A stretch of 64,000 bases of DNA from Posidonia oceanica (Eukaryota > Streptophyta > Magnoliopsida > Alismatales > Posidoniaceae). This document shows, in pieces, positions 3,655 through 54,971 of the stretch. Below the pieces are notes generated by a model that did not search any database, was not told where the DNA came from, and was given only the letters and a program-made list of their open reading frames with translations. How positions within the stretch are numbered: the first letter of the stretch is position 1; every line of letters begins with the position of its first letter. Location: positions 147,509,501 to 147,573,500 of the forward strand of contig JAZBRS010000026.1 in the NCBI GenBank assembly GCA_037176725.1, given 5' to 3'. Position numbers and translations under genes: made by a program.

Positions 3655-6418
3655 ATGGCAAATAGTATGGTGCCAATATTAGTTCACTGAGATGGAAATG
3701 TTGTTATGAATGGAAAACTCCGGAATATGAGAATTGTACTTCTAAAGTAGTCGATTTACGTCGTAAAAGTAAATTAATAGACTTGAAGAATAATGTGTTT
3801 GAACTTACCGGATTTGATCGACGTTATTATGATATTAAGATTTCATGTAAATAGCCTTTGCATGGTTCGTCGACTTGTGTTGAAATCACAAATGATGATA
3901 CGATAGAGATTATGTTGAGCTTGACTGATAAAGTGCTTACTGTGGAAGTGTATGTGGAAAAATTAGATTTAGATTATAGAATTGTATCTCAATCACACTA
4001 TGCACATTTTACCACAACCTTCACTCGAATGTTGGACTCTGATGTTGATCCAAGTTTCGTTCAATGTACTCCGGGATTTGAAACTGTGACACCAACTAGA
4101 GGATCACAATTTCTTCATAGACAATGGTATATGTACTTTTTTATTGTAAATAAATAGATGATCATATATTTCTTTGAAGTTAATATATCTCAATAATTTT
4201 CGTAGAGTTCCAAATCAATGGAGTGCGTTCTCTCCATACCATCACAATATGCATTCGTCCACCTATGAAGTTGGTGAGTCCTCAAGTCGTGCCCCTCCTC
4301 AACCAAACTTAGACTTGTCATCATATCATCATGTTCTTTCTCAATCGAACTTGGACTTGCCATCATATCATATGCAAGACAACACAGAACAACATGATAT
4401 GGAAAATGATACAAGGGGTTTGAATGATGAATTATCAAGTGATGAATACCAATCTAGAGAAGAAGGAACAAATATTATTCACTCTATGTCACTAGTGTTG
4501 AGCAATGAAGCAGATGATTATGTTGATGAACATTGCATAATACCGTGAACCATTGGAAGAGCTTCCTGACATATTTGATAATGAGGATTGGATAAAAAAT
4601 TCAGTTATAGAAGAAGCAGTTAATCCTATATTTCTCAACACTGAAGAAGGTTATGTACATGAAAATGTTGATGGTGTACCAGCTAATGTAGGTCATGTTT
4701 TTTGGCCTGACAAAATTTTTCCCACTAAAGAAGACTTAGTATATGCATTGCAAGCATGGCACATGAATCATTTTGTGCAGTACACAATAGTTGCATCCTC
4801 AAAGAGTAAGTATACAGTGAAGTGTATACAAGATGGTTGTCCATGGAGATTACATGCATCTGTGCTTAAGGGAAAGACTTTCTTCAAAGTCAAGAATTAT
4901 ACTTCAAACCACACTTGTAGTAATCCAAACTTATTATCTACTCATAGACAATGCAGTTCAACATTTGTTTGCAGGCTAATACTTCCATCAGTGAAAATGA
5001 GAATAAATGTTACTCCAGCAGAAATTATGGAAAGGGTGAAGACTGAAAAAAGGATTGACATTACTTACCAGAAGACATGGCATGCAAGAGTGAAAGCATT
5101 GAAAATCATCTATGACGGAGATGAAGAATCGTTTGCTGATCTAAGACGATTCATGAGTGTTTTACAAGTATCTAATCCAGAAACAGTGGTGGATTTTGCA
5201 TCCGACCACCAGACACTTAGTGTTGAACGTTTTTGCCGTGTCTTTTGGACTTTCGGCGCTTCAATTGCTGGATTTCGTAGTTGTAAGCCCGTCATTTCCA
5301 TAGATGGCACACATTTATATAGAAAATATCAAGGATCACTACTTATTGCTACAAGTTGTGATGCAAACAATGGTCTATTTCCACTAACTTTTGTAATTGT
5401 GGAGAAGGAAAGAATAAATGCTTGGACTTGGTTTCTAGATCGAATTGTAAATCTTGTAACAAATCAAACGGGATTGTGTATCATCAGTGATCGGTTCACG
5501 AGTTTGGCTATAGTTGTGCGAGAACAATTTCCTCCAAAGTTGGGACACGTACATCGTCATTGTCTACGTCATATGAGAGCAAATTTGACTAGAGCACACA
5601 AAGAACCTAAGTTACTTGAGAAATTTTATGAGTTAGAAGTGAAAGGCAATATGACTAAGTTCTACAAAAAAATTGAGGAAATCAAGAAATCTTATCCTAA
5701 TGGCTATAGGTGGATAATAGAACAAGAACATCTAAGTTATTGGACACTTGCATTTGATAATGGAAGGAGATATGGCATTATGACAACAAACATGTCAGAA
5801 AGTTTCAATAATGTCTTGAGGGGTGCTCGCGGTCTTCCCGTCACTGCATTGATTCTTATGACATTTTTGCGTCTAAACAAGTTTTTTGTAAAAAGACGTA
5901 AAGATGGTCTCCAAATGCACACCTTCTTTGCACCAAAGGTGGAAGGGATGTTTCAAAAAGCTACTGAAAAGGCAAGATACCTACGGATTGAAGCGTATCA
6001 AGGTCATGTTTACCAAGTAACAACTGCACATAGTAACAATTATGAGATATACTTGAATGGGGAGAAAACAACATGTAGTTGTGCATATATGCAACTACGA
6101 AGAGTACCTTGTTCACATGTTCTTGTTGTTTGTTCTCAAAATTATGCAAACATTCATACTGCTTCCTTAGTGGATAGACATTTTCAGAGCTCAGCTTATA
6201 GGGAAGCTTATACTTCTGTTTTTCATCCAATCCCTGACAAAAGATATTGGCCAGAGCGAGTGTCTTCTTACATGTTACCTCCAACAGAAATACGTAAATA
6301 TGGTAGACCAAAGTCCACAAGAATCAGAAATGAAATAGATGAAAACAGTGGTAGAAGAGTGAGATGTGGTATATGTAAGGTACTTGAACACAATAGGTCA
6401 ACCTATCCAAGTAGATAG
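3655..6418 (+). pseudogene. MULE transposase (MuDR/FAR1-like), decayed
   Basis: This would encode the DDE transposase that cuts and moves the element. Downstream of an N-terminal region (from the ATG at 3655) there is a canonical intron at 4127-4205, then a long frame from about 4541 to 6418. Numbered from 4553, it has a MuDR DNA-binding domain near residues 45-130, acidic catalytic residues at D251 (IDGTHL), D313 (ISDR) and E416 (MSESFN), and a SWIM zinc finger with C508, C510, C520 and H522. A terminal CCHC knuckle is spoiled because its last Cys is Tyr. Breaks seen are a TGA near 3690 and a shift soon after it, a TAG at 3852-3854, and a frame change near 4540 where the upstream frame stops at 4546-4548. 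The catalytic core is therefore open, but the full protein could not be made from this copy. Confidence 0.88.
4127..4205 (+). other. Intron of the MULE transposase gene
   Basis: A 79-base segment starts with GTATATG and ends with TTTTCGTAG. Removing it joins a conserved HRQW segment to RVPNQW in an open frame. The segment itself contains in-frame stops, which supports its being an intron. Confidence 0.7.
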
Positions 6419-13631: not shown

Positions 13632-13943
13632 TCAATATAAGAGCGAGCAACCCTCCCTGACGAGCACAAACACACTGCTGCGATCCCCTCTGGAGATCCT
13701 CAGCTCATCATCGAGATAGGTTGTCAGCAACCAGGACTGAGCATTATTGCTGGTGATCGGGATCTTAAGTGGTGGCTGATCAGAAATGGTCTTGGCCACT
13801 GATGATGCTGCGTCCTGGACAGATGTGAATACACCTTTGAAGGACGAGAGGTCAATGTTTTGCCCAAACAATTCCATCTTCTCAGGGATGACGATCGAGT
13901 CTGTAAGTTGAGGGGTGCCTACAATGCCTTCTTCAAACATGAT
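13632..13943 (-). CDS. Fibrillin exon 3 (stop codon)
   Basis: The acceptor AAATGCAG ends at 13944. The exon then reads 103 codons from [16 protein letters not shown] to the TGA. It continues the conserved fibrillin sequence directly from the VQ of exon 2, in phase 0, which is the main evidence that exons 17 kb apart belong together. Confidence 0.9.
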
Positions 13944-16900
13944 CTGCATTTTTTTGTTAGATAGCATACCACATTTACATGCTTATATGTATGGAGACAT
14001 TGACAAAAAATTCTTCCAAACAAGTGGAACTAGGTCTAACAAATAGACATTGCCAATTTAACCTTGGAAGAGAGCATAACAAAAGTTTTTTTTTTTTCAA
14101 ATCATTGAGGAGATACTAATGATGATCCATAATTGTTTATTTTGTAGTACCACCCTTCTACTAAGCGCCTAGATGCACATATTTTCTCCGACAATTCTCT
14201 TACCAAAACTTCTAAAGGTTAGGATATATTTACTGTTCAAGATACTTGGCAGATAAAACCCATAAGAAGGTTTTAGTTAATTTTCTACATATCATGGCTG
14301 GGATTGTAAGCTTGCAACGGTAAGTCACACATGAATGAAAAGAAATAAGAAATGAAGTGGTTCACAGTACATGAGCATACAAATAAGTATCATGAAAATT
14401 TTAAAATAATATGAAGAAATATTAAGCACTGAGAAAATTCAATTCCGATGTTTTGGTTGAATTGAGATGCAGAGAGCAATTTCAAGGGGCCACTACTTTC
14501 ACGCATGGCAAAGGAATGAAAGTATGAAACTCATCCTCAAGCAGGTGCATATTGGAAAAGGAAGATCTTAACTTAGAGACAAGTGATACCTTGGTGTCAC
14601 TTCCCGTGGCAAAAGAGGGAAATTTAGAATCTCAGTTTTCAGGGAGGACAATGAGGAGTTTTATGGAACTTTCGCAATGATGTTCCCCAGACATGCAGTA
14701 CAAGTTCTACTATTTTTATTAATAGAACTCTCACCCAAAATTTGGAGAATGAAATGAATTCATAATACCAGAATATGACATTGTCTCATACTTGATCTGG
14801 TCTAGCCTAGAGATTGAATTAGTATTGAGAAAGATTATTGGAACTTCTAATTATCACATGGAACGAGTCTAATGGGTTGGGCATTGACATCGCACACGTT
14901 TATCATTTCAAACGTTCATTCAATTTGTACAGAAGCTAATCTTATAAAAAAATGTGCATAACACCATCAGACTTGATGCCACTGGGCATAGATTAATAAG
15001 ACTAATTATAATGTGTTGAGTAGAAAGGGAATTATGATTTAATGCTTAACAAAGAAATACAATCTCTTATATATAGGAGAATACACGCTTAACCAACAAA
15101 TAACCTAATAAATGGATAATAATTAGATCCATATAAGGATCCAATTATTTTAACACTCTCTTTCAAATTGGAGCATACAAATCAACCATGTTCAGCTTGT
15201 TACATATAAACTTGTAGTTACTAGAGGGCATAGCTTTGGTAAACACATCCGCAAGTTGACTAGAGGAACATGTATAAGGAGTTGTAATGTCCACTGAACT
15301 GTATTTTTTACAAAGTGACAATCTACCTCGATATGTTTGGTTCTCTCATGAAATACCGACTATATAAATAGTAGCTTGATTGCCATAGTGCGTAGGCACA
15401 GGTTCATCTCAAGGGAATCCAATCTCTGTCAAAAAAACATTAATCCACATCATTTCACAAGATGTATGAGCCATAGCTCTGTATTCAACTTTTACACTAG
15501 ACCGGGACACCATATTTTGTTCTTGCTTCTTCATGTGGTTAGATTTCCTCCTACAAAGGTATAATAGCCTGAGGAGAACTTCCTATCTGCAAAGGTGATA
15601 TCGGATCATGTCACAATGAGATATATCATCTTCCCAACCAATTGTCTGTACCTCCTCGTGTCTTTAAATAGTTCAGATAATTCATCGCAAAGGTCAATAC
15701 TAGGATTCTGGGAGCATTTACTAGTTTGCATCCAAGCAATCCTGTCTCTTGCAGCAAATCAAGTACATATTTTCTTTAAGATAATGCTATTTTATCTCTT
15801 ACATGGTCAATCTCAATTCCTAAGAAATACTAGAGACAACCCAAGTCTTTAGTGACAAAATGTTTCTTTAGAAATGTTCTGCTCTTTTCAATTCCTGCAC
15901 TATCACTTTCAGTCAGTAGGATATCATTTACATAAACAACTAGAACCACACAGCTCTTGCGTGCCTGTCTCACAAATATTGAGACATCAGCATTACACAT
16001 CCTGAATCCAACCTGCTCAATAACTTTGCTAAATTTTGTGAACCATGCATGTGGACTTTGCTTGAGACCATATATGGTCTTCGTCAATTTGCAAACTCGA
16101 GTCTCTCTGTGAGCAATATACCCTGGAGATTACTCCATATACACCTATTCTTGCAAGTCACCATATAAAAATGCATTTTTCACATATAGTTGATGCAAAG
16201 GCCATCTTTGATTTACTACCAGAGAAAATAGGATTCTGATGGAGTTCAGACAAGCAATTGGAGAGAAAGTTTCAAAGTATTCAACTCCATAAGTCTATGT
16301 GAACCTATGAGCAACAAGATAAACCTTGAACCAGTCAATAGTACCATCAGCAACTCATTATCTCGACATCATGTGGTGCAGCAACAAGGTCTCACATCCC
16401 ACGAGACTGTAAGGTTGACATCTCCCCATCCATTGCCTGTCTCCATTCAAGTACACGAATCACCTCTGGTGATTCCTGAGTATAGAAACAGAAGACAATG
16501 ATAAAGCAAATGTCCGGTACATAGGGTGAAGTTTATCATATGAAAAAAAATGAAACAAAGGATGAGCAGTAGAACGAGTATCCTTCCTATGGGTAATGAG
16601 AATATCAAGGTTAGGAGCAACAACAGAAGAAAGTGTAGAATTCAAACCTGCTTCTGAGGATGGTTGGTTGGTACCTTCAAGGGTAGCTTGCGTACATTGC
16701 CTCTACTTAGTGTAAACCTGTAGTCGCTTGTCGGGAGGAACATAAGACGTACCAACCAGTTCATCAAAAGAAGTAACTAGAGGTAAAGGAACTGACAGAT
16801 CAGTAGAGCGCAGGAGAAAAAGGAGTATCCTCAAAGAATATGACATCCGCAGAGACATAATATTTTCGACTCACTGGATCAAAGCAACGATACTCCTTTT

Positions 16901-19900
16901 GGGTGTGGATCAAAGCAGTAGAGCGAGTACCCTTCCTATGGGTAATGAGAATATCAAGGTAAAAAGGAGTAGCCTGCGTACATCGCCTCTGCCTAGTGTA
17001 AACCTGTAGTGGCTTGTCATGGCTTGTCGGAAGGAACATAGGACGTACCAACCAGTTCATTAAAAGAAGTAACTAGAGGTAAAGGAACTGACAGATCAGT
17101 AGTAGATGCAGGAGAAAAAGGAGTATCCTCAAAGAATGTGACATCTACAGAGACAACATTTTCGACTCACTGGATCAAAGCAACGATACCCCTTTTGAGT
17201 GTGGGAATACCCAACAAATATATTCCATACTCCGAATGGAGTGTGGCAGGAGTTTGTCGAGATTAAGATGAGTGCCTTGGACAAAACACAAACAGCAAAA
17301 AACTCAAGGAGGTAGAGGAAACAACAGTTTCTGAGAGAATAGTAGATAATAAGGAACCTAACCATGACTAAAGAAAGGCATTCTATTGAGAAAATGGCAG
17401 GCAGTGAGTACTGCATCAACCTACAGAGATTTTGGTACCTTCACCTGCGTCATAAGAGTCCGGGTGACAACCAGATAACGGAGTTTGCGTTCAGTGACAC
17501 CATTCTGCAAAGATGTCCGAAGACAAGTAGTCTGTTGGATGACTCCCTGATATTCACAAAGTAGAGAGATATCACGCTGTACATATTCAAGAGAATTATT
17601 AGTACAAAAAAAACGTAATGGCTGAGAAAATTGGGTTTTTATTTCATTGAATTTTTTTTATAACAACAAAAACTTGAGTCCTATCTTTGATGAGATAGAC
17701 CCAGGTCATCCAAGAGAAGTCATTAACAAAAATAACAAAATAACGAAACAAGACACGGACGTAACATGACACAGTCCCCATACATCTGAACAAGCTCCAG
17801 AGGAACATCACTTTGCTTTTGATGTCAAGATGGATAAGAGGATTGTATGTGTTTCCTAAGTTAACACGACTCATAATGACAAGGACTACAAGATGAAGAA
17901 ACATGTAAGACACTCTTCAACCTATCCAAGGAGGGATGTCTCAAGCGACAATGTCATAAGGAAAGCTGCTCAGTAGATATAGACATATAAGCAGAGTCAG
18001 TTGTATGGCCTTTGCTCTAGAGACAATACAGGCTACCCCATTTAGGCCGAACCAATCCACCTTCTAGTCTATAGGTCCTCAAAAAGAACATTAGAAGGAA
18101 AAAAAGTTACGACGCATTGAAGTTGTTTTGTAATCTCACTAACAAAGAGAAGGTTAACAGGAAAGTTTGGGACATAAAGAACATCACGAACTGTTGAATT
18201 ATCTGGGAGAGATACCACTCCATGACCAGAAACACTAGAACAGACTCCATTAGCAATAGTCACAGATGGTATAGAAACAAAAGGTGACAAGGAAGAGAAA
18301 AACTGTTTTGTACTAAACGTGTTTTGACGCACCAGAATCCATAATCCAGTCTCCATCAGAGGACGTAAACTGTACTAGCATACCCGACAAAGTAGCATGA
18401 GTGGCAATAGAAGCTGTAGAAGACTGAATCAATCGATCATATTCCTCTTAAGTAATGGTCACTGTCACCGTTGCAATTGCAGGGTCTGATGAAGGAGCAG
18501 AAGAAGCAGTGGTATGTTGAATCCACTCTGGTCTGTCGAATTTGTCCCAGCATTTTTTAGACTTGCGAATGCCACGATCCGCACCGCGTCCTCCCACTGA
18601 ATTATGTCCTCCGCCTCGACCACGACCACAGCCACGACCAACACTGAATAAGACATATTAATCCGTGTATGACGTCAAAGCACCAGTAGAGATACTTAGT
18701 ACTTAAGAGAGGGTCGTTAACAGCAAAGGGACAATGTCGCCACCAAGAACATGGCCACGGATCTCAAATGCGATTTCGAGTTTGAGAGCAGATAGGAATT
18801 TAGCCATTGCAAGTTCTTCACGGTATTCACACATCTTAGTAATGTCAAGAACAAGGGGTTGATAAACCTCCAACTTGTCCAACAGAGACCAGAGCGAGGT
18901 ACACAACTCCTGTACAGTGATCTCCTTGCTTGCAATGTAAATATCTGCTCATAAATCTCAATTACCAAGGAGATATTCTTCTCATGCCCATAGGTATTCT
19001 TCAATATGTCCCATATTTATGAAGAGAAGATATACGACAACCTAGGAATGCATTCCTAATCGACGGCAGAGACTGCAGGAGCCATCGGAGGGGAAAGGAA
19101 TGGCTAATGAGGTGGTTGGAGGCATCTGAAGTGAAGAAGAAGGCTGACGGACGACAAGACTGGCGGCTGTTGTAGGTGGCGACACTGACAGCTAGGGGTG
19201 AGAGGCTCGACTGCGGAAGGAAAGGAGGAAGAAGAGGTGGATTAGGGTTAGAGTTTTTGTTTTTGAACCTATGCTCTAGATACCATGTTGAGTAGAAAGG
19301 GAATTGTGATTCATTGCTTAACAAAAGAATACAATCTCCTCTATATAAGAAAATACATGCTTAACCTACAAGTAACCTAATAAATAGATAATAATTAGAT
19401 CCATATAAGGATCCAATTACTTTAACATAATGGAAACGCAAATAACATACAAAATAGGATTTACACAGAAATAAATTTTCCAGAGAATATGGAAAGACCT
19501 TACCTGTATATAATGAAAATCCTTTATGAAAAGACTATCTACGTGCTCCATTGGGTGTAATCAAACACTGACACTAAAAGCATTATTTGGCTCCTACAAT
19601 GTAGTGAGTTCTAGCCAACCACTCCTAAGTACTAGCGAATAAGAGTCGCAATGCATGCACTCACAACCGAATACAAAATAACCACCGTTGGAACACCTTC
19701 GTGCTCATTCCTCGTAGACAAACAACAAAGTTAAACTTCGATCCTCTTGAAGTACATGCTCAGTCTCCTTCGTGTCTTCCGAGTAGCCATACAATCTCCT
19801 CTTTCTTGTCCTCCGAGAATATGCAGATTTACGTAGTCACACACAAGAAACTTTCACGAAGATCTCTCTCTCATGTGATATCTCATATCATATGTATATA

Positions 19901-22900
19901 GAGAGATGAATTTATCCCTCATTATAAATGAGATATGAGTTTATCCCTCCTAATAAATAGGGAGATATGAGTTTATTTTACCTAATAAATAGGAAGATAA
20001 TATAATTATCTCTTTTAATTCAGATAGGAATAAATTTCGTGATTAGTATCTTGTAAAGGAAGTAACTATTGTGATTAAACCATACAATAATTTTTCCACA
20101 CTACATAGATGAGTTCATTGAAATTCCAGATTTCTTAGTATAAGATTCCAAACTTTCCTATGGTCTAACAACTGTAGTGCCAATACCACTTTGGCATGAA
20201 GTCCCAGACCTCCTGATGGTACTAACTCGATCATGACTTGTAGTCCCATACTACTATAATATAGAGCCATGATGCTGTAGTATAAGGTCCAAACCCCTTC
20301 CTACCATACTACCCACAATGTACCTCCTGCAAAAACACAAAACATCTCAAATGCATAAGGACTCATTAAGACATCTTGCCAACCTTAACAGGATATGTAC
20401 TATAAAGACTAAACTTATTGGAGTCAAACAAATAAATCATCTATTTCTTCTTTGAACCATTAAATAAAAGTTTAGTAGATTGCTCTTTGAACTAATAACA
20501 AATATTTAAATGGTAGAATACATAAATGTTTACAATGTAGACATTAGTCCCATTCTTTTTGAAGTCTTCTCCACAAATTCTCTCATAAGACCTTTAGTAA
20601 GATTCTCCCGACTTCTTATGTTAATCCTCGTGATCACACCCCTTTTGAGAAGATCAAAGACATATGCATGGTAGATCTGCAAAGTCTTCTTCTGTTTGTT
20701 GTACAAATCATTACCCATAGCTGTCGCAATCGCTTGATTGTCACAAAAGATAGCAATACTTGACATTCTTTTTCTAAATGGTGGAAGACCAAATAGTAAC
20801 TTCCTGAGATACTCTACCTCCTAGGCTACAGCTGCCAATGCATAAAACTCAGATTCCTTCAATCACAGCAGGGTAGCCAGTAAAGAGTAGAGTATAATGC
20901 ATGATTCCTTTAAGGTAAGCCATTACCCTCTTTCTAGCAATCCAATGCTCCTCACCTGGATTCTTAGTGAACGTGCTCAATATACTCACAACAAACATTA
21001 TGTCAAGCCTAGTACGATTCATTGTATACATGAGATTTCCAACAACTTTGGAATACTCTAGCTGTCATACAACTTTCCCACTATTTTCCTCTAACTTGTG
21101 CACAAAGTCATACAACATGTATACTATTGCCAAGTCAGAATACTTTTATTTTGTAAGTACATTCTTAATATAATGAAACTGTATCAAAATGCATCCCTCT
21201 GTAGCTCTCACTATCTTGATCTCCAGGATCACATTTGTAAGCCTTATGTCATTTATGTTGAAACTTGGATGAAAGAAATTTCTTTGTATCTTTCACAGCC
21301 TCTGTGTCAGTACCAAAGATAAGCATATCATTTACATAAAGACGTATGATGACTTCTCGTTCATCAGTAAATTTTATATAAACATACTTGTTAGCATCAC
21401 TAACTTTGTTATTTGACTTGATCACTTTATCGAAATTCTCATGCGACATCTTGAGAGCTTGCTTTATTCTTTATAGAGATCTGACTAATTTACATACCTT
21501 TCATTCTAGTCCATTGACTACAAACCTTTCAGGCTGAATAATGTAAATTTCTTCAGTCAAGTTTCCATTTAAGAATGTAGTTTTTACATGGATCTGACAT
21601 ATTACCATCTTTTGTATTGCAGCCACTGCAATCAATAAACGAATGATGAAAATACGAACTACTAGAGAAAGGTATCAAAATAATCAATGCCTTCCTTTGA
21701 CAACTAGTCTAACTTTGTACATGTCCACTAAACCATCAACCAACACCTTCTTCTAGAAGACCCATTTGCAGCCAATTGATTTTGAGTTATCAGGTAGATC
21801 CACCAACACCTACGTGTTGTTATCCATTATTGAGTCGTACTCGTCTTGGATTGCATCTCGCCAGAATACTGCATCTCTAGACTGCATTGCTTCCTTAAAG
21901 TTTTGTGGATTACCTTTGTTGAAATATGGACATCCAACTCAAAATCAATTGACAATGAATGGAGAGATCCATCCATATATAACCACAAGTCTTAGTCCTC
22001 ACTTTTTCAATGTAGAACTATTCCAACACTCCCCTACACTTGTAGCCTATTTTAGGTCCAACAAGTCTCTTTTAAACATAAGTGGATGTGTGTAGATTTG
22101 AGCCCCTTTAGGCCTCTTATGGCTCTGATACCATGTTGAAATATAGACATCTAACTCAAAACCAATTGGCAATAAGTGAAAGGGTTCATCTATATATAAC
22201 CACAAGTCCCAGTCCTCACTTTTTTAATGTGGGACCATTCCAACAACCTTCTATGCTATAAGTGATAAAAACAGGTCTAAAGGTTTTCTCCATTCTTGCT
22301 CACTTGGTTGTTGGCTCCTCCACCTTAGGTATGACATTCTCAATTATTGATTTTGAATACTAGATTATCGTTCTTTCTTGTAGAGAAATTTCCTAAAAGA
22401 TCATGCAACATAATGCTTTTATTTTAGATGAACTTCTCCTCGAAGTACTTTGCATCTCGAGCTTCTATAATGGAATTCGTTTCCAAATCTAGAAACCTTT
22501 GAGCAACACTGTTCTCAGTATATCCTAGAAATACTACCTTAGTTGTACAAGTTCCCAACTTATCAATCTTTATGTCTAGTAGTCTAGCATAGGCTAAGCA
22601 CCCCTACCCTCTAATAGATCACATTCTAGGCTACCTCTTGAACTAGAGCTCATGTGATATCGTCTTCATCTTGGAGAAAGTGCTCTATTCAGAGATATAG
22701 TTTACAGAAAGAACTACTTCACTCTAGTAATAGTTCAACAATCCGACTGTTTGCTGCATTGAATTGACCATCTCAGTTAAGGTCCTATTTTTCATTTCCA
22801 CTACTCTATTCAACTGTAGACAGTATGGAACTGTAGTTTCATTCTCGATTCTATACTCTGTGTGGAATGTCGTGTGAAAGATTAAGAGAAAGAGTGTGTA

Positions 22901-25900
22901 TATCTATTAGGTCAAAGAGATTACATATATATAGGGTAGGTTGGATAAATGGATATCCGTTTACCTTATTATATGACTCAACCCATGATACTCTAATGAA
23001 CTCAATACTCCATATCTATCATGTCCAGCTTGTTACAAAGAAACTCATAAGTTCTAACATTAAGTCCTTTAGTGAAGATATCTACAGCCTGATTAAATGA
23101 TTTTGTATATAGAGTAGCAATAATCCCATTCATAACCATCTCTCTAACATAATGACAATCCACCTCTATATGCTTGGTATGCTCATGGAATGTAGGATTA
23201 TTAGTAATGTAGATAGCCGTCTGATTATCACAATACATGAGCATAGATACAGCAATTGGAAAATCTAGATCTGTCAGAAGAGAGCGAAGCCACATCATCT
23301 TACAAGCAGTTTGAGCCAATATTCTACTTTTTACTACGCTACGTGACCAGATTTCCTCAACATAGGTGTAATATCCAGAAGTAGATTTCCAATCTCCTCT
23401 GTCGCCTACATAGTCAAAATCTAAATACGCTTCAACGAGCAGATGACCATTTTTCTTGTAAACCAGTCCTTTTTCAGGAGCCTTCTTAACATAAGTCAAT
23501 ACTTGTATGACTCCAAACCAATGTACTGTCCTTGGTTTCTACATAAACTGGCTAAGGACCCCAACATTATATGCAATAGCTGATCGTGTCACAGTCAGAT
23601 AAATCAACTTCCCAACAAGTCGCCTGTACCTGCCAGCATCTTCTAACAGAGGTGAAGAGTTATCTCAGAAGTCTAGACTTTGATCAAATGGAGTATTTTC
23701 TAACTTACACCCTAAAAGACATGTTTCCTGCAATAGATCCAGTATATATTTTCTCTGCGATAATGCCATTCTGTCTCTAGTATAAGTAAATTCAATGCAC
23801 AAAAAATACTTAGGTCTGCCAATGTCTTTGGTCACAAAATACTTCTATAAATGATCCTTCGTCCTCTGGATTCCTGTAAGATCACTACATACATAGCTAG
23901 TATCACACAGCCACTCTTTGTCCGTTTGTAGAACACCGAATGATCCACCGTACAACTTCGGAAACCATAAGTAGTAACAATACTCCTGAACTTCTCAAAC
24001 CAAGCTTGTGGACTCTGTTTAAGCCCATAGATAGCTTTCTTGAGTAAGCACACCTGATTCTCCTAAGCAACATACCCAGGAGGTTGCTCTATATGCACCT
24101 GTTCCATAAGATCACCATACAGAAACGCATTCTTGACATCGAGCTGAAACTTCCCAAGATTTGTTGATAGCAATGGAAAGGATAATTCTGATGGAATTCA
24201 ACTGAGCAACAGGAGAGAATGTCTCAGAGTAATCAATGCCATACTCCTGTGTGAAGCCTCGTGCTACTAGGCGAGCTTTGTACCTGTCTACCATACCATC
24301 AGATCTGTATTTAATGGCAAACACCCATCTGCAAGTAACAACATTTATTTCCTCTGGTCTGGGCACCAATGACCATGTCCCACAAGACACAAATGCATCC
24401 ATTTCATCATCTATTGCTACTTTCCACTGTGGTAGTAAGAGGACTTCTTGGTAGTTCCTGGGAATTGATTCAGAAGCAATAGACAAAGCAAATATACGAA
24501 AAGTAGAGTGAAGGCGATCATAACTAACAAAATGAGAAATAGGATGGACCATGGAGACACGTGTACCTTTCCGAATGGTAATGGACAAGTGAAGGTCTGT
24601 AGGTGGCAGATCTACAAATAGTGAAGAAGATGTGGTTGTAGGGAGCGTGACCGTCGCTGATATACCTACAAAGTCTTTAACATATCTTTGCCTGTAGTAG
24701 GAGCATCATTGACATTAATACCACCAGATTCAACAATGCAAGGTAAAGATACCTATCAAGTGATGATGGATCACTAGCAAAGAAACACTGATTTTCATGA
24801 AAGGTAACATTATCAGAGACTATGTATTTCCTGCTAGCAGGAATATAATAACGATAACCATGCTGAGTACGAGAATATCCCAAGAACACACATCGAATGG
24901 ACCTTAGAACAAGTTTATCCAGATTTGAGGTCAAATCCTGAACAAACGCAAAACAACCAAAAACCCGAATGAGTGAAAAAATATCTACATCAGGACGTAG
25001 CCTTTTAAGGGGAATTTCCCCCCTAAGTGGGGTGGAAGACATACGATTGATGAGATAAGAAGCTGCTAAAACAGTATCAGACCACAGATACTTGGAACCT
25101 GCATTTCAAACATAAGAGACCTGGCAACATCAAGGATATGACGATACTTGCGTTCAGCCACACCATTTTGTTGCGATGTATGAGGACAAGAGATCTGCTA
25201 GATAACACCAAGAGATTTACAATAATTGCGCAAACTTGCTTAAGTAAATTCCAATGTATTATCAGTACGAAGAATTTTTAGACACAGAATATTGATTTAT
25301 TATTTCCATGAAAAACTTTTTGATAGTATCAAGAACACTGACTCTATCTTTCAACAAATAAATCCAAGATACAGATAATATAATATCTATGACCAGACAC
25401 AGAAGGTGTTCTGGTTGGACCCCACACAACATAATGAACCAACTCAAAAGAACTCTGACTTCTAACTAAACTAAGACGACGAAAGGTAGCACGATGATGC
25501 TTACCTAACTCACACGACTCACACCGAAAAGAAGAAATAGACATCCATGGAAGAGCTTGCTGTAGTTTACGATGAGAAGAATGACCCAAGTGACGATGCC
25601 AAATAATAGACTGATCTGCAGTGGAAGTTAATGATGCAAGGCCTCGAGGTATCTCATCTTTGACTAGTAAGTAGACTCCTTGACCTTTGTTACGTCCCAA
25701 ACCAATCCTCTTCCCCGTCTACAGGTCCTGAAAGGTACAGTGAAAATAGAAGAATGTTACAAAGCAATTAAGATGTTTGGTAATGGAACTAATGGACAAA
25801 AGGTTAACTGGAAATTCAGGTACATAAAGAACTTTGTCTAATGTCAACTAAGACGTAGCACGAATTGTGCCTTGTCCAGCCACACGACAAGTCCTACCAT

Positions 25901-28900
25901 CTGCAATGGAAACTGATCTAAGGTCGGGTAACTGGGATAAGCGAGAATAAAGGTCACGACTACCTGTCATATGAGAGGATGCCCCTGAATCAATAATCCA
26001 AGAACTGTCCCTAGAAGCAAATAGACCAGAAGTATTTGACGTGGAAGCAGTAGCATGTGATGCCATAGCTGTAGAATACTGAGTCTCTCTAAACGGAAGA
26101 AACTGGACATATTCCTCCTGAGAGAGTGTTACTAGAGATGCACTAACGGTAGGAGTAGTTGAAGATGTATTCTATACCCCTGTAGACACTGTGCTTAATT
26201 GGATTTCCCACACTTCTCCCAGCAACAATCAGATCTGTGGTTAGTACGACCACAGTGCTCACATGGAGTATGACCTCTGCCATCGATCCGTCCTCGACCT
26301 CCTCCTCTGCTAAAACTACGACCACGACCACGAGTGGCTACCATAACGGAATGATCTGATGTAGACGTGGGTGTACCAGTAGAAATACGAAGGACCCGAG
26401 CAAAGGTACTCTCCAGGCTAGGAGTAGAATCTCTGAAGCTGACCCTCAGACCCTCAGACCAGACCAGATAGATATGCAGCAACTGTAAGCTCCTCACAAT
26501 ACCGACACATCGTAGTGATATCTAATGATACAAATCAAGCTCCTCAAGAAGGGATCGAAGTGAAGAGAAATGCTATTATACTAAACTGTCACCCATTTTC
26601 AATGTGAAGATCTGCTCATACACTTCAAAAACTTTAGAGATATTTTGCTCATAACCATACATCATCTTCGGAGTATCCCAGATTTTCTTCGCAGGACGTA
26701 GAAACATCACCCCATGAGCAACCGAAGATTCCATACTATTCACCATCCATGAGACTACTGCTGAATTCTCAGCATACCAATCTTTAAAAGTACTATCCTT
26801 TGCATCAAGTGGAAGCTGAGTGAGGTGTTTTAAGTTTTCAATGAGTAGCTAAAAAGATTTCAAAACTTTGTGCCCACATAAAGTAGTTCTTCCCATCAAG
26901 TTTTGCTGATTCCACTCAGATTCTTAACAAATCCATCTTTAGAGGGCATCATATTGGCACAAATCAGATCTGAATGCAGTTACTTGAAGAGTAAAAACAA
27001 TACAGAAAACACTTCAAAGAGATTACACAAACTAGTAGTCAAGTGGGAGACAATAACCACCCTCAGTAGTAGTAGATAATGATAGAAACAGTCTTCTTCA
27101 GGAACTGTGTAGCAGCATGAATCACGATACACGATCAAGAGTAGTTAGAAATACCTTTTGATGGCCCATTTACATACGTAATGGAGAGACGTGATAACAA
27201 AGGCCACCAAAGACAGAGAACGGGATAAAAAAAACCTTAGTAGCAGCCAGAAACAGGTGTGTCAACACAGATTCAGGCCAACCAGGGCCCACCGGCAGTG
27301 AAACAAGGCCGCCGAATGGCAGATCTGGGCCGCTGGAGGTCTGTCGCCAGCAGGGCAGGGCCTGGCGGCCCCTGCTGACGGCAGAGAGGGCAGAGGAAGG
27401 GGCTGACAGCGCCAGAAAGCGAAAAAAATAGGTCCAGGGACTGTGCTGGCGTCGAAGGTGGCCAGAAACGAGCTCGTCGGCGCTGGAGGTGGCCGGAAAC
27501 GGCAGAACAGTGGTGGCCGGCGGCTAGGGTTTCTCCCTGAGCTCTGGTACCATGAAAGATTAAGAGAAAGAGTGTGTATATCTATTAGGTCAAAGAGATT
27601 ACATATATATAGGATAGGTTGGATAAATGGATATCTGTTTACCCTATTACATGACTCAACCCATAATACTCTAATGAACTCAACATCGTGAATTCCTTAG
27701 ATTCATATTCCCCTCTTGTGTCACTTCTCGGTTTCTTCATGTTCCTTCCTGTTTGTCTTTCTGCTCAAGCCTTGAAGTCCATAAACTTTTCAAAAGTTCC
27801 ATTTTTTGACTTCAACAGATAAACGAAGACATATCTAGAGTAGTCATCTATGAAGGTAAGAAAGTACTTCATCTTGCCTCTACTTGTGAAGCTTCTAAAA
27901 TCACGTATGAGAATGGACCAATTCTAGAATTTCTGTACTCCTGTAAACTCTCTTAAAAGACTTTCTAACAATCTTTGTTTGTACACATATCTTACTCTTC
28001 TTGTGTGTATTACCCTTACATTTTGGAATACGCCAAAGTTCAGATATTTTCCAATTCTCTTATAGTGCACATGTTTTAGTCTATGGTGCCATAACTCAGT
28101 CGAGTAGTCGACATAGGCCTCTTGCCTTTAGTACCATGGTTTGGTCACTTATCTACCTTAAATTTGACCAAAGAAACAACATTAACCGTGGCTATCTGCT
28201 TGGCAATCATATTATACTTTGCCCTCTACTCCGCCTCATTCTCAATCCCGATGTTCACAATAGATCGTCCATATTAACTTCTATCTTCTTGCGATAAAAT
28301 ATCAGTGGCAAAGTGGATCAACCTGCTGGTAGTTTATTCAAGATACACCCAACCAGATATCTCTCTGGAAGTTTCATCTCGTCTTCAACCATCCTTTTGA
28401 CTGATCGACTTACAGAAGCGTGAGCTTGTCCTCCGAGAACTTATAGTCTTTGAATTTCTTGACGATATGAATTTTGACCATACTCTCATCATCCTTGTAT
28501 TGCTTCTCTAAGGAGATCTCCTTTACAATTTCCATCTTGGAGTAGGAATATGCAATTCTCTTTTCAAGATTGTGAAGGATCAAACCCTTGCACAGAGAAT
28601 TAACTTTCGTCCATCTTTTCTTTGAAGTCTCTGCAATATGAATCGCTCTAAGCGATTGTCCTTCATCCACGCCTATCAACTCCAACATGAACAACACGTC
28701 ATGTCTCCACGTGTTATAGTTAGAGTCATCAACCTTCTCAAGTTTTACAAGATTTTGTCCTAGTATCCTCATATTATTGCTATCTATAACCTAATCAATT
28801 AATGCAATAACGCAACAACACTTTAAGATTGATACCGTCTGACATAAATTAATACGACTAATTAAAATGGAAACGCAAATAACATGTAAAACATTATCTA

Positions 28901-31865
28901 TGCAGAAATAAATTTTCCAGAAAATATGGAAAGATCTTACTTGTGTATGATGAAAATCCCTCATAAGAAGACTATTTACATGCTTTACTAGTGTGTAATT
29001 AAACAGCGACGTTTAAAGCATCGGCCCCTACAATGCAATAAGTTTTAGTCGAACTGCACCAAGTACCAACAAGAAAGAGTTACGTACATGTACTCGCAAC
29101 CAACTTCAAAAAACCACTATTAGAATGAATGCCTTCAATGTCCACTTCTCGTAGACAAACAACAGAATCAAACTTCAATCCTTTCGAAGTACACGATCAG
29201 TCTCCTTCTTGTCCTCCAAGAATACATACAATCTCCTCTTTCTCATCCTTAGAGAATATATAGATCTACGTAATCACGCACAAAAAACTTTCACGAAGAT
29301 CTCTCTTATATGATATATCATATGTATATAGAGATGAATTTATCCCTCCTTATAAATAAGGAAATATGAATTTATCCATCCTAATAAATTAAGAGATATG
29401 AGTTTATCGCTCCTAATAAATAAGAAGATAATACAATTATTTCTCTTAATTCGGATAGGAATAAGTTTCATGGTTAGTATCTTGTGAAGAATTGAAGTTA
29501 TCAGGTAGATCCACCAACACCTACGTATTGTTATCCATTATTGAGTCATACTTATCTTGGATTGCATCTCGCCAAAATGCTGCATCTCTAAATTGCATTG
29601 CTTCCTTAAAGTTTTGTAGATCACCTTCTATGCTATAAGTGATAAAATGTTTTCTCCTTTCTTGCTCACTTGGTTGTTGTCTCCTCCACCTGGGGTATGA
29701 CCTCCTCGATTATTGATTCTAACTCCTTATCAAATACTAGATTCTTGTTCTTTCATGTAGAGAGATTTTCTGGAAGACATTGCAACATAATGCTCTTGTT
29801 TTAGATGAACTTCTACTCAAAGTACTCTGTATCTTGAGCTTCTATGATAGAATTCATTTCCAAATCTAGAAACCTATGAGTTCTCAGTATATTCCAAAAA
29901 TGCTGCCTTAGTTGTACAAGTTCCCAACTTGTCAATCTTTATGTCCGGTAGCCTAACATAGACTAAGCACCCCCACACTCTAATAGATCCCAGACTAGGT
30001 TACATTTTGAACCAGAGTTCATATGATATCGTTTCCGTCTTGGAGAATGGTACTCTATTGAGATATAGCTTGTTGAAAGAACTACTTTACCTTAGTAGCA
30101 GTTCTGCTACATAGAATTGACCATATTAGTCAAGATCCTATTTTTCCTTTCTACCACTCCATTCAACTGTAGATAGTATGAAGCTGTAGTTTCATTCTCG
30201 ATTCCATATTTCGTGTGGAATGCTGTAGGTTCCTTCCTGTTTGTCGTTCTGCTCAAGCCTTGAAGTCCATCAACTTTTCAAAAGTTTCATTTTTTGACTT
30301 CAACAGATAAACAAAGGCATATCTAGAGTAATCATCTATGAATGTAAGAAAGTACTTGATTTGCCTCTACTAGTGAAGTTTCTGAAATCACATGTGAGAA
30401 TGGACCTATAGCCAATTGGTTGAGTTATCAAGTAGATCCACCAACACAAACATGTTATTATCCATTATTGAATTGTACTAATCTTGAAATGCATCTCGCC
30501 AGAATGCTGCATCTCTAGACTACATCTCTCATATGATATCTCATATCATATGTATATAGAGATGAATTTATTCCTCCCTATAAATAGGGAAATATGAGTT
30601 TATCCCTACTAATAAATGGGGAGAAATGAGTTTATCTCTCCTAATAGGAAGATAATACAATTATCTCTCTTAATTCGGATAGAAATAAGTTTCATGATTA
30701 GTATCTCGTAAAGGAAGCAACTGTCGTGATTAAACCATACAATGATTTTAAATTATGTAAGGAGTGATTCTCCAACAAGAGTCAATATAAAGATCTATGT
30801 CTACTGTTTTGAGCAGATAGCTAAGTTTCCCAGCAGTACATCCGTAAGTTCAACCGACTACATTCTTAGTTTGTTGTGTGTTCCTTCCAAAAGTCAGGCA
30901 ATCATTTCCATTGTTTAATAGTGCTTGACATCAAATATTGGATGGATGTTGATCAGAAACAAGCAACAGCATCAAAGATAATGGTAAACCAACTACTTGA
31001 ATTCTCCGTAATAAGCCAAATTAAATACCAAGGTTTCCATACAAAAGACTACGTTCACAAATCGAAATCCACCAAAACATCACGAAACCAGGAGAACTGA
31101 AGGAAGCAATACCTGGACACGTTTGGGGCTGCGGACTTCGAACTTGGCATTGGTTGTGAGAGAAGTACTGGCAAGGGGGCCTTGAAATTTGACGGAGTTC
31201 TGCACGGTAAAACACACAGAGTCGATGGTCTGCGAGATTTCCTCCACCTTCACCAGCCGCGGCACATTCCGAATCGCCAGAAGCGGCAACAGACCGGAGA
31301 AGGAGGTGTACCTGCAGAAAAGACGAAACGAGAAGAAGAAAACCAAACAGAAATCAGTGATTTGGGTAAAAGAAACCAGCGGATTCTTGGTGTTGTGTTC
31401 TTACGCGAGGATCCACTTGCCGTCGAGGAGGGAGAGGGCTTCGGTGGGAGCAGGGTTGGGGTTGAGTGCCTCGAGCTGCGTGATGAGCTCCACGATCTCC
31501 GCTCTGGTCTCGCTGGAAGCGTTGAGGCCACGGTCTGTACCGTAGAGCTTGTCCTTGAGTCTCTTCTTCAGCTCGTCGGCACCACCACAGGCCCCCGCCT
31601 CTTCTTCTTGCGTTTTCTTCTTCTTGTCGACGGCGACGGAAGCATAGGAGTTGGGCTCGCCGCGCTCCACGCCCCACTCGTCGTCGTCGGTTGTTGCCTT
31701 GACGCAATGGCGGAGGCGGACGGGGCTGGCATGAAGGGTGGGTCGACGGGAGGAGGAGGGGGAGGAGGAGAGCGGGGGGAGGAGGAGGAGGCGATGGTTC
31801 TGTGACGACGATGACGAGAAGGAGAAGGTGGTGAGGAGAGGACGGAAGGTCGAGGCTCCTGCCAT
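13632..31865 (-). CDS. Plastid-lipid-associated protein (PAP/fibrillin), three exons
   Basis: Fibrillins coat plastoglobules and carotenoid fibrils in plastids and protect photosynthetic membranes under stress. The spliced frame is join(31865-31405, 31311-31113, 13943-13632): 461 + 199 + 312 = 972 bases, 323 residues plus stop, the usual length for the FBN1/PAP1 group. The first 55-60 residues are rich in Ser, Leu, Pro and Arg, as in a plastid transit peptide. The domain begins near residue 97; conserved words are [84 protein letters not shown] and VFVLVREG. The last residues (CSLLY) differ from the SPLLNP-like end of relatives. Both introns are GT-AG and phase-consistent; intron 2 is about 17.2 kb of retrotransposons. 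I see no stop or frameshift. Whether the giant intron is spliced needs transcripts. Confidence 0.9.
13945..14982. other. Left part of intron 2, nothing recognised
   Basis: AT-rich sequence without an open frame, inverted repeat or family match that I can see. It is bounded by the exon 3 acceptor and the first copia LTR. Confidence 0.5.
15014..15155 (-). repeat. 3-prime LTR of the 4.4-kb copia
   Basis: The repeat is 142 bases with TG and CA ends. On the minus strand it is preceded by the purine-rich GAAAGAGAG. Confidence 0.92.
15156..19272 (-). pseudogene. gag-pol of the 4.4-kb copia, heavily decayed
   Basis: Reading the minus strand from high to low coordinates: gag ([14 protein letters not shown] near 18750-18850); a GRG-rich linker and the protease to pre-integrase region (18069-18650); integrase core ([18 protein letters not shown], 17644-17800); RT ([12 protein letters not shown] and VVYVNDILL, 15830-16087); and RNase H to C-terminus near 15160-15560 ([25 protein letters not shown]). 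Every domain is broken by stops and frame changes. The RT catalytic YVDD reads YVND. A duplicated segment lies at about 16570-17200. This copy cannot encode an active polyprotein. Confidence 0.85.
16570..17200 (-). repeat. Tandem duplication of about 0.3 kb inside the 4.4-kb copia
   Basis: The block around 16591-16900 recurs at 16940-17200. Matching words are GGGTAATGAGAATATCAAGG (16591, 16940), GTACCAACCAGTTCAT (16750, 17045) and GGATCAAAGCAACGATAC. The offset falls from 349 to about 290-295 because the copies differ by a roughly 60-base indel. Confidence 0.8.
19273..19285 (-). promoter_or_regulatory. Primer-binding site (tRNA-Met type) of the 4.4-kb copia
   Basis: On the minus strand the sequence is TGGTATCTAGAGC, close to the usual TGGTATCAGAGC complementary to initiator tRNA-Met. 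It directly abuts the LTR. Confidence 0.8.
19286..19427 (-). repeat. 5-prime LTR of the 4.4-kb copia
   Basis: The repeat is 142 bases with TG and CA ends, directly followed on the minus strand by the primer-binding site at 19273-19285. Confidence 0.92.
20101..22869 (-). pseudogene. RT and RNase H part of the old TNT1/Tork-like copia
   Basis: Minus-strand fragments show the RNase H end ([15 protein letters not shown] and LTKGLMREF, 20530-20766), RT palm and connection ([15 protein letters not shown], 20849-21031) and the RT catalytic box [12 protein letters not shown] (21249-21449), where YVDD has become YVND. Stops and shifts separate all pieces. A TRIM at 21917-22245 interrupts the RT N-terminal part. 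The fragment ends at the 4.8-kb copia insertion. Confidence 0.75.
21917..22245 (-). mobile_element. TRIM / small LTR retroelement, 329 bp
   Basis: Two 112-bp LTRs (21917-22028 and 22134-22245), both TGTTGAAATAT to ATTCCAACA, flank a 105-base core with no coding capacity. A perfect target duplication ACCTT lies at 21912-21916 and 22246-22250. On the minus strand the core starts with a primer site TGGTATCAGAGCC (22133-22121) and ends with GTAGGGGAG, a purine tract, directly before the other LTR. The paralogous copy at about 29625 has the uninterrupted site GATCACCTTCTATGC. Confidence 0.93.
22875..23007 (-). repeat. 3-prime LTR of the 4.8-kb copia
   Basis: The repeat is 133 bases. The right-hand end reads TA where the partner LTR has CA. 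Confidence 0.92.
23008..27540 (-). pseudogene. gag-pol of the 4.8-kb copia, decayed
   Basis: The minus strand, from high to low coordinates, holds a GC-rich leader and gag (about 27400-26340) and a CCHC knuckle ([18 protein letters not shown], about 26195-26280). It continues with protease [13 protein letters not shown] (25848-26066), pre-integrase and integrase [10 protein letters not shown] and [10 protein letters not shown] (25344-25700), and the integrase C-terminus (24677-25042). RT follows with [16 protein letters not shown] and [12 protein letters not shown] blocks (23832-24588), then RNase H ending near 23002 ([23 protein letters not shown]). Stops separate these. In the RT catalytic box the two Asp residues are missing (MYVVILQ where MYVDDI is expected). 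The element is therefore dead, although individual domains are longer than in the neighbouring 4.4-kb element. Confidence 0.88.
27541..27552 (-). promoter_or_regulatory. Primer-binding site of the 4.8-kb copia
   Basis: The minus strand reads TGGTACCAGAGC, one base from the tRNA-Met type TGGTATCAGAGC, directly next to the LTR. Confidence 0.8.
27553..27685 (-). repeat. 5-prime LTR of the 4.8-kb copia
   Basis: The repeat is 133 bases with TG and CA ends. It abuts the primer-binding site at 27541-27552. Confidence 0.92.
27691..28839 (-). pseudogene. gag and integrase part of the old TNT1/Tork-like copia
   Basis: The minus-strand frame at 28772-28410 reads [15 protein letters not shown], then [12 protein letters not shown] and [19 protein letters not shown], matching TNT1-type gag blocks. 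Below it (27700-28300) lie integrase and pre-integrase remnants with many stops. On the minus strand GGTATCAATC follows the LTR and may be the old primer site. The segment continues 20101-22869 across the inserted 4.8-kb copia. Confidence 0.7.
28840..29488 (-). repeat. Right (5-prime) LTR of the old copia, truncated
   Basis: It starts TGACATAAATTAATACGACT and follows the left LTR for about 650 bases, then stops matching near CTTGTGAAG. The last 50 or so bases of the LTR are missing here. A copy of that end occurs at 30523-30756. Confidence 0.7.
29489..30522 (-). repeat. Two extra, partial copies of the old copia internal region
   Basis: Bases 29489-30408 match 21775-22869 joined to about 27730-27920, without the TRIM and without the 4.8-kb copia. 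Bases 30409-30522 match about 21767-21885 again. Shared words include TAGATCCACCAACACCTACG and TTCATTCTCGATTC. No intact frame is present. These pieces are a rearrangement or a second truncated copy of the same family. Confidence 0.7.
30523..30756 (-). repeat. LTR fragment of the old copia
   Basis: It matches the last third of the left LTR (about 19866-20095), from TCTCATATGATATCTC to ACCATACAATGATTTT. The remaining intron sequence follows without a visible target duplication. Confidence 0.7.
31113..31311 (-). CDS. Fibrillin exon 2
   Basis: The acceptor TTTCTGCAG ends at 31312 and the exon starts with the third base of a split Ala codon. It codes from YTSFSG to SPKRVQ and ends at a CCAG/GTATTG donor. 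Intron 1 is 93 bases (31404-31312). Confidence 0.9.
31405..31865 (-). CDS. Fibrillin exon 1 (start codon, transit peptide)
   Basis: The ATG at 31865-31863 opens 153 codons plus two bases, ending before a GTAAGA donor at 31404-31399. The exon is GC-rich, unlike the surrounding AT-rich DNA. Open frames on the plus strand over it (31182-31805) are shadows caused by the GC-rich codon use. Confidence 0.9.
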
Positions 31866-42120: not shown

Positions 42121-42477
42121 TGTTGAAAATAATCAATGAGATATTTAATTTTGATGATAACAAATTACTTGAGTTATTACGTTTGAGTTTATTTTAAGAT
42201 AGGAAATATATCTGGAAAGATCAACATATGATACTCGTCAAATGAAGCATTAGAAGCAGAAAAGAATACCACATCGAAGCCTTCATGAAGACAAGAAGAA
42301 ATGTCAAAAAGACCATTTTTATTGTTGTAATATGTTGTATGATTTTTCTTCATTATTGTACTATGTGAAATGTAATAGATCTCCTAAGGTGTATGGTGTC
42401 CTAAAAAGATTTTAGGAAATATCCACACTCAAGGACCAGAAGAAATCATATGGGAAAATATAGAGTATAGAAGATAG

Positions 42478-42857
42478 GTCAAAATCGGCAAACCGTTTTT
42501 CTACCGGTATATCGATTTAGAGTTGATTAGAAAATCATTTACTTGTGACCGTTACACTAAGAAAAAAATAGGTTAGGTCAAAATCGGTAAAACCATTTTC
42601 TACCGGTATACCGATTTAGAGTTGATTAGAAAATCATTTACTTGTGACCGTTACACTAAGAAAAAAGAGTTAGGTCAAAATCGGCAAAACCATTTTCTAC
42701 CGGCATACCGATTTAGAGTTGATCAGAAAATTATTTACTTTTGGCCGTTACACTGAGAAAAAGGGATTAGGTCGAAATCGGTAAAACCATTTTGTACCGG
42801 TATACCGATTTAGGGTTCATCAGAAAATCATTTGTTTTTTACTGTTATAGGATTTTG
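42478..42857 (+). repeat. Four 97-99 bp tandem units in the SIRE 5-prime LTR
   Basis: Units start GTCAAAATCGG at 42478, 42577, 42674 and 42771. Each carries a CGGTATACCG-type palindrome and a GACCGTTACAC word. The same array is at about 57098-57460 in the other LTR. Confidence 0.88.
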
Positions 42858-43000
42858 GCACAACCATAATTCATCAGTCTACCGATACTATTGATCGTTA
42901 AGATTTTCGGTCGACCGATCATTTTCGACATACCGTTTTAGTTGTCTTGGTCTATCCATTGGGCTAGCTGTTAGACAAACTTTGTGACCTTGCTAAAATC

Positions 43001-43009
43001 TATAAATAG
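43001..43009 (+). promoter_or_regulatory. TATA box in the SIRE 5-prime LTR
   Basis: TATAAATAG is followed by a GACCCCAAGGA-type start region. The same motif sits at 57620-57628 in the 3-prime LTR. It is the likely pol II promoter of the element. Confidence 0.65.
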
Positions 43010-43535
43010 GACCCCAAGGACCTCACTAAGAAGCACCAATATAAGTGATATCATATACTCCATTTCTCAAGCTTCAAAATCCAATTACAAGTGAGATTTC
43101 TCCCTAGCAAGCTATCAAGTGCATCAACAAGAGTGTTCAAGTGCTAAGTGTATCGTGGGAGATCAAAAGAGCTACTTATTGTAAAGTAAATTGTAACAAG
43201 GGTGGTATTCTTCTCCAGCTTAGAGAAGGACTCTGCGGTGTTTGCCGAGGAGGTTGTAATCTTCATCAAGTAAGTGTAGTTTACTGTGATTTAATATTAA
43301 GGGAACTCCCGAGGGAATCTGGGAGTGGACTAGGCCGGTGGCTGAACTACTATACATAACTGAATTATACATTGCCTCTCTTCTCCTTCTTTGCATGTTT
43401 TAAAATAAAATTCAATACCATAGATTGTGCAAGTATATTTGTTTAATTAATTTTAAGCTAAATTCATCAAAGAATTCTGTAAACTTTTAATTACTCTATT
43501 TACCCTCCTCTAGAGTATCACTAGATCCTAACAAT

Positions 43536-43547
43536 TGGTATCAGAGC
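43536..43547 (+). promoter_or_regulatory. SIRE primer-binding site
   Basis: TGGTATCAGAGC lies two bases after the LTR. It is a perfect match to the usual copia site complementary to initiator tRNA-Met. Confidence 0.92.
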
Positions 43548-46500: not shown

Positions 46501-46549
46501 GGCCCATCAGCCCGTTCCTTTTTTTTTCCTTCTTTTTTTTCAAAATCCC

Positions 46550-49639: not shown

Positions 49640-50370
49640 CGTTGTTTTTGACACCGTTTTGCGTGCCCTTTGGTTTTCTTGCTTCGTTTTGCATGCAGTC
49701 TTGTTTTCTCGCACCGTTTTGCGTGTCGCCTCTTTGTCTTGCACCGTTTTGCGTGTCCTTTGGTTTTCTTGCTCCGTTTTGCACATAATTCTGTTTTCTC
49801 GCACCGTTTTGCGTGCCCTTTGGTTTTCTTGCTTCGTTTTGCGTGCAGTCTTACTTTCTCGCACCGTTTTGCGTTCTGTCTCTTTGTCTTGCACCGTTTT
49901 GCGTGCCCTTTGGTTTTCTTACTTCGTTTAGCCCGCAGTTCTGTTTTCTCGCACCGTTTTGCGTGCCGCTTCTTTGTCTCGCGCCGTTTTGCGTGTCCTT
50001 TGGTTTTCTTGCTCCGTTTTGCGTGCCTGTTGGTTTTCTCGCTTCGTTTTGCGTGCCGCTTCTTTGTCTTGCACCGTTTTGCGTGTCCTTTGGTTTTCTC
50101 GCTCCGTTTTGTGTGCCGCTTATTTGTCTTGCACCGTTTTGTGTGCCCTTTGGTTTTCTTGCTCCGTTTTGCGTGCAGTTCTGTTTTCTCGCACCGTTTT
50201 GCGTGCCGCTTCTTCGTCTTGCACCGCTTTGCGTGCCCTTTGGTTTTCTTGCCCCGTTTCGCGTTCTTATTTTGTTTCTTGCATCGTTTTGCGTGTCAAC
50301 CTCGTTTCTTGCACCGTTTTGCGTTCTTGCTTCGTGTCTCGCACCGTTTCGCGTGTTTTACGTTGTTTCC
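49640..50370 (+). repeat. Tandem array of about 30-bp units in the 6.1-kb solo LTR
   Basis: Units of 30 bases built on CTTGCACCGTTTTGCGTG, alternating with CCTTTGGTTTT or CCGCTTCTTTGT tails, repeat about 24 times. Because the unit is a multiple of three and lacks stops, all three plus frames stay open (159-257 codons); this is an arithmetic effect, not genes. The array has no counterpart of this length in the 4.6-kb LTR. Confidence 0.85.
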
Positions 50371-54280: not shown

Positions 54281-54329
54281 ACATTGGTTTTGAACAGAAA
54301 TCGAAATCGGCACACCGATTCCCATCGGT

Positions 54330-54745: not shown

Positions 54746-54971
54746 TGTAACAAGTATATTGGCATACCGATTTCATATTGGGATACCGTTTTGTTCAAAA
54801 ATGCCTCCTCTGTATAAAAAGCCTAGGGTTTTACCGTTTTTATTTCTCCTTCCTCACTCACGGCCGACTCCTCCAAAACCTTAAACCTCCCCTTCTCCTA
54901 CTCTCCAAACCCTAGAAAACCACCAGATCTCTCACACTCTCTCGTCCTCCACTCCTCACTCGACCTTTCCA

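Follow-up and report, generated by a model that had tools for sequence, protein, structure and literature searches.

Within the window, the whole 64-kb stretch of DNA that was analysed, the minus strand carries what is in all probability (about 0.8) a single FBN1-type fibrillin gene, with a second intron that has grown to 17 kb through nested elements and a coding sequence that is most likely still functional. The gene comprises three minus-strand exons with GT..AG borders: exon 1 (31405..31865, with the start codon at 31865), exon 2 (31113..31311) and exon 3 (13632..13943, including the stop codon), the first two delimited by frame and splice sites and the third beginning with ATC ATG (I221, M222). 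Intron 1 spans 93 bp (31312..31404), intron 2 spans 17,169 bp (13944..31112, GT..AG), and the joined coding sequence of 972 bp (323 codons and a stop) has no internal stop codon and no frameshift and retains all of its splice sites. A preliminary description had proposed both that these exons join in frame at GT-AG sites into a 323-residue fibrillin and that they form one gene around an intron of stacked retrotransposons; the first proposal is borne out by the coding sequence and its domain match (below), the second by the nesting of the elements and by three 5-bp target duplications.

Gene model, paralogue and phylogeny

The 323-residue product matches PF04755 (PAP_fibrillin) over residues 98-314 (E 2.1e-74, 250.3 bits against a curated cut-off of 22), and this domain is preceded by an N-terminal extension. 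Two distinct PDB sequences match the protein, both named fibrillin 5 homologue, with the best match over residues 99-234. Exon 3 is the top row of the PF04755 genome search (E 7e-23), though it lies 17 kb from exons 1 and 2. Because it also has the correct strand, order and frame relative to those exons, and its splice position and phase agree with those of a paralogue, chance is excluded as the source of the predicted three-exon gene model.

The PF04755 search of the 2.96-Gb genome returned 12 matches, listed exon by exon, while the full window protein as query returned six, three at the window and three on contig C19. The latter were modelled as a paralogue of the FBN2 type, with three exons encoding 334 residues and introns of 1,269 and 782 bp at the same positions and in the same phases as both introns of the window gene, the 782-bp intron being the counterpart of intron 2. 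The earlier generalization that fibrillin introns are normally short agrees here with this one paralogue; the parts of two fibrillin papers that were available (PMC7258936, PMC10298608) give intron numbers and no lengths.

A tree was built from 48 proteins, of which 46 were named homologues chosen from 240 fetched and two were the products of the genes of this genome; it has a midpoint root and a bootstrap that had not settled. In this tree the window protein adjoins Zostera in a PAP2/CHRC-like clade (100/98) and the C19 protein adjoins Zostera in a PAP3/plastoglobulin-1 clade (100/99), the two clades being separate and, with the midpoint drawing and the unsettled bootstrap, both at 100/100. 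The host plant is accordingly placed as a monocot whose closest relative among the sampled plants is Zostera, which argues against Chloranthus as the source; matK occurs in the genome only in the form of broken nuclear pieces. The separation of the clades suggests that the two genes are ancient paralogues rather than a gene and its spare, and since the sole other full match is this FBN2-type paralogue in a different ancient clade, the window gene is the only FBN1-type gene identified by sequence in the 2.96-Gb genome. With FBN1/PAP2/CHRC-type plastid fibrillins it shares the PF04755 domain, length and clade, and it differs from them in its 17-kb intron 2 and in M222, a position at which all 112 homologues examined carry lysine.

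Remnants resembling hAT transposases were noted by eye downstream of the C19 paralogue (L009:7465-8735) and in the window (58862-60617), where the one piece searched against Pfam (59268-60146) gave no match.

Retroelements nested in intron 2

Intron 2 contains four retroelements, whose layers were resolved by self-comparison and reading, with the ends placed by eye. The elements were named by structure and by short protein pieces, and lineage assignment stops at copia. The outermost is an old, rearranged copia (14974..30741, minus strand), its ends taken from comparison with seven other genome copies. Its LTR-like pieces lie at 14974-15008 together with 19428-20086, at 28830-29489 and at 30525-30741, with about 1 kb of internal sequence (29490-30524) between the latter two. 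A gag-like piece (28410-28790) reaches 26 bits with PF14223, just below the cut-off of 27, and reverse transcriptase remnants occur at 21288-21908. No matching pair of target duplications was seen for this element.

Three further elements interrupt the outer copia, each on the minus strand and each closed by a 5-bp target duplication. The copia El1 (15014..19427) has LTRs at 15014-15155 and 19286-19427 that are 90% identical, and is bounded by TAATG (15009-15013 and 19428-19432). A small non-coding LTR element of 329 bp, a TRIM (21917..22245), has 112-bp LTRs (21917-22028 and 22134-22245, 84% identical) and the duplication ACCTT (21912-21916 and 22246-22250). The copia El3 (22875..27685) has LTRs at 22875-23007 and 27553-27685 that are about 95% identical, an RVT_2 match at 24112-24705 and the duplication TCGTG (22870-22874 and 27686-27690). 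In El1 and El3 the tblastn pieces run in the Ty1/copia order, integrase before reverse transcriptase and RNase H, on the minus strand; in the outer copia they are also on the minus strand, fewer and broken. The TRIM, recognized by its short LTR pair, its duplication and its lack of coding capacity, carries on the minus strand, as judged by eye, a motif resembling a tRNA primer site. On the basis of these protein pieces and this motif, all four elements are oriented in the sense of the gene. The preliminary description was right in recognizing an old copia together with three other retroelements, each bounded by a clean target duplication; the identification of one as a TRIM, the common sense orientation and the internal rearrangement of the outer copia are additions.

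The outer copia with its nested elements fills about 15.8 kb of the intron and leaves 1,030 bp on the left (13944..14973, by subtraction) and 371 bp on the right (30742..31112), a remainder of 1,401 bp that is near the size of the paralogue introns. Part of the right-hand segment may itself belong to the outer copia, since the sequence at its start is similar to what borders that element on the inner side in other copies.

LTR-pair divergence is 0.21 ± 0.05 for the TRIM (115 sites, including a few beyond the LTRs), 0.108 ± 0.030 for El1 (142 sites) and 0.047 ± 0.020 for El3 (133 sites), the youngest element, the large errors reflecting the shortness of these LTRs. The three pairs together hold 36 transitions and 4 transversions, an excess that fits past methylation without showing it. 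Dating the outer copia from its own LTR pieces was attempted and dropped, as the pieces are no more alike than copies in different parts of the genome: 19428-20086 and 28830-29489 are 79% alike, against 75-82% for copies elsewhere (best 40 of 789 candidates), and for 30525-30741 the similarity over the shared end is 86.5%, within the 80-87% obtained with seven other copies. The latter piece also has a flank like the inner side of other outer-copia copies. The lower age bound is thus set by the nested TRIM (K about 0.2) and El1 (K 0.108), than which the outer copia must be older because both sit inside it. Judged by divergence, the order of insertion is the old copia, then the TRIM, then El1, then the recent El3 inside. 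Intron 2 probably began at about 1 kb and would have received a copia that was subsequently rearranged, and the nesting and target duplications indicate that this rearranged copia later became host to El1, El3 and the TRIM.

The abundance of the outer LTR family (789 candidates, 40 scored) could in principle mislead an assembly, so that misassembled repeats joined exons from two loci. We regard such an artefact as barely conceivable, given that the window has no N, that three nested insertions are each closed by a matching target duplication and that exon 3 and exons 1 and 2 match solely here and at the distant paralogue.

Elsewhere in the window, a large composite (42121-58151) is bounded by direct repeats (42121-43533 and 56741-58151, 93% over 1,416 bp) that look LTR-like and enclose copia gag (43567-44016) and reverse transcriptase (52631-53395) pieces as well as several kb of other sequence. 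Inside it lies a tandem array (49644-50355) of about 24 copies of a unit of about 30 bp (60, 90 and 150 bp fit as longer periods), which accounts for the long chance open frames there. A 361-codon open frame (54885-55970) reaches 44.9 bits with PF20167 (Transposase_32), just below the cut-off of 45. An open 625-codon MULE transposase occurs at 4541-6418 (PF10551, E 7.5e-15), with SWIM and DBD_Tnp_Mut domains.

Selective constraint on the coding sequence

Unselected decay was simulated in 4000 runs, with the gap rate and transition share taken from the outer LTR comparison, at K 0.047 (the value of El3), K 0.106 (close to the 0.108 of El1) and K 0.20 (close to the 0.21 of the TRIM). The whole coding sequence acquired neither a stop nor a frameshift in 7%, 0.3% and 0/4000 of the runs, respectively, and exon 3 alone remained intact in 43%, 15% and 2.5%. 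Conservation was assessed with 112 homologues (of 120, eight being dropped by length), positions being counted as conserved at 95% or more. From residue 93 on, exons 1 and 2 differ at one of 73 conserved positions, and the probability of one change or fewer at these sites under neutrality is 0.004 at K 0.106 and 3e-6 at K 0.20. Exon 3 differs at three of 51, as many such changes or more being present in 11 of the 112 homologues, with neutral probabilities of three changes or fewer of 0.23 and 0.007 at the same two values; taken alone, exon 3 is therefore compatible with neutrality at K 0.106 and only disfavoured as neutral at K 0.20. The lysine-to-methionine change noted above falls in codon 222 (13938-13940), two codons past the acceptor. 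On a fixed topology, the terminal branch of the window gene ranks third of 27 for exon 3 and sixth of 27 for exons 1 and 2.

The simulated decay and the conserved-site counts argue that constraint has acted on the gene as a whole since the insertions began; the high rank of the exon 3 branch counts against this. If the silenced elements mutate faster than exons, as they may, the simulations are too strict and the tests weaker. The proposal that the gene still works, originally made on the ground that no exon is broken, is well supported for the gene as a whole and moderately for exon 3 alone, whose chance of surviving unselected ranges from 2.5% to 43%.

Constraint on exon 3 may have relaxed slightly, or function may have been lost recently, as an intact coding sequence is unsurprising (7%) at the K of the youngest element. 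In the case of such a loss the gene would have been split by the last insertions or by early polyadenylation, with exons 1 and 2 giving a product of at most 230 residues and exon 3 decaying. Consistent with such a course are the methionine at codon 222, unique against the 112 homologues, the three changed sites in exon 3 and the chance survival of this exon in 15-43% of runs (K 0.106-0.047). The sense LTRs carry possible poly(A) words (intron 2 holds 11 sense AATAAA words), and a retained intron 2 would bring a stop 10 codons in and a product of 230 residues. Recent loss is nevertheless unlikely in view of the 972 bp without a stop, frameshift or lost splice site, the single change at the conserved sites of exons 1 and 2 and a branch for exon 3 that lies inside the range of other plants' genes. 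In addition, no second FBN1-type copy able to replace the window gene was found in the search of the 2.96-Gb genome.

Long introns in this genome and in other plants

Intron lengths elsewhere in the genome were sampled with prokaryote-type models of SecA, ValRS and PPDK, used solely to read exon spacing (5 of 54 candidates scored for ValRS). Single-exon rows on C54 and C6 and two rows on C23 were left out, as were seven gaps with unmatched model stretches (the largest 8,443 and 11,495 bp). The 28 gaps with model-adjoining flanks have a median of 621 bp and a maximum of 7,374 bp, three exceeding 5 kb; since none of this small sample reaches 17 kb, the FBN1 intron belongs to the upper tail. In the SecA gene, two introns measure 6.3 and 7.4 kb and a further gap 8.4 kb, and the ValRS gene has one intron of 6.3 kb. 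Two of these four long stretches contain copias, one has hAT-like open stretches (by eye) and one has inverted repeats. One SecA intron (L031, C15:20305049-20311396) holds an El3-family copia, 85% identical over 3.2 kb and antisense to SecA, with an LTR pair of its own (positions 903-1044 and 5686-5819 of L031). The 17-kb intron thus exceeds the small sample yet is the same in nature as other long introns of this genome.

Long introns filled with transposable elements (TEs) are already known in large plant genomes and are ordinary there. According to the available part of one study (PMC2773423), nested LTR elements have extended the fourth intron of a maize gene to more than 12 kb with a conserved exon-intron structure, as in the window gene; the same intron measures 647 and 264 bp in sorghum and rice, and transcripts support the activity of such maize genes. 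That case concerns another gene and plant and draws on orthologues and cDNAs, whereas a deep paralogue and the sequence alone serve here. In Chloranthus spicatus, with a genome of about 3 Gb, LTR elements are reported (in part of PMC8626473) to lengthen introns genome-wide to a mean of about 3.4-3.7 kb, to be the main source of long introns and to be accompanied by a drop in expression only above 40 kb. Those are genome-wide statistics with RNA support from another lineage, the window plant grouping with Zostera. A seagrass genome study, in the portion available (PMC7615686), annotates introns of 20 kb and more as a class. Against this background the window gene, which has no close duplicate to stand in for it, preserves clear successive layers of intron growth, and it could be a useful case for testing how splicing proceeds across LTRs in sense orientation; it changes no concept.

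For a functional FBN1-type gene, the unbroken reading frame, together with the GT-AG borders and the conserved-site counts, suggests that RNA polymerase would read through the 17 kb and that the intron would be removed between its original splice sites. By analogy with Arabidopsis, silencing marks on the elements and factors of the IBM2/EDM2 type, which suppress early poly(A) sites in heterochromatic introns, would be the customary means by which a plant tolerates such an intron. In the parts of the Arabidopsis work that were available, heterochromatin over TEs in introns favours splicing or keeps polyadenylation from occurring early (PMC4417168), the use of an intronic copia LTR as a polyadenylation site is suppressed by EDM2 (PMC7529245), and silencing of TEs influences both elongation and the choice of poly(A) site (PMC10241880). 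Genes with intronic TEs there also show lower expression (PMC4417168), which disfavours the assumption that the intron is free of cost.

Two regulatory extensions follow the same line. It would be a long shot that the chromatin state of the four sense retroelements gates the full-length output of the only FBN1-type gene found, with exon 3 drifting slightly faster (K222M); if true, TE silencing would directly determine how much of a plastid lipid-body protein is made. Very improbable indeed is a switch in which the full-length gene works and lost silencing favours early polyadenylation in an LTR, yielding the truncated 230-residue form. An intronic copia in the sense of the gene is the same arrangement as in the measured switch at Arabidopsis RPP7/COPIA-R7 (as described in part of PMC7529245), but AATAAA words are common in AT-rich sequence anyway.

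The window gene with its expanded intron resembles RPP7/COPIA-R7 and the introns regulated through EDM2/IBM2 (parts of PMC7529245 and PMC4417168) in having an intronic copia with an LTR that is a possible early poly(A) site. It differs from them in that regulation was measured in Arabidopsis, whereas the window gene presents four nested elements known from their sequence.
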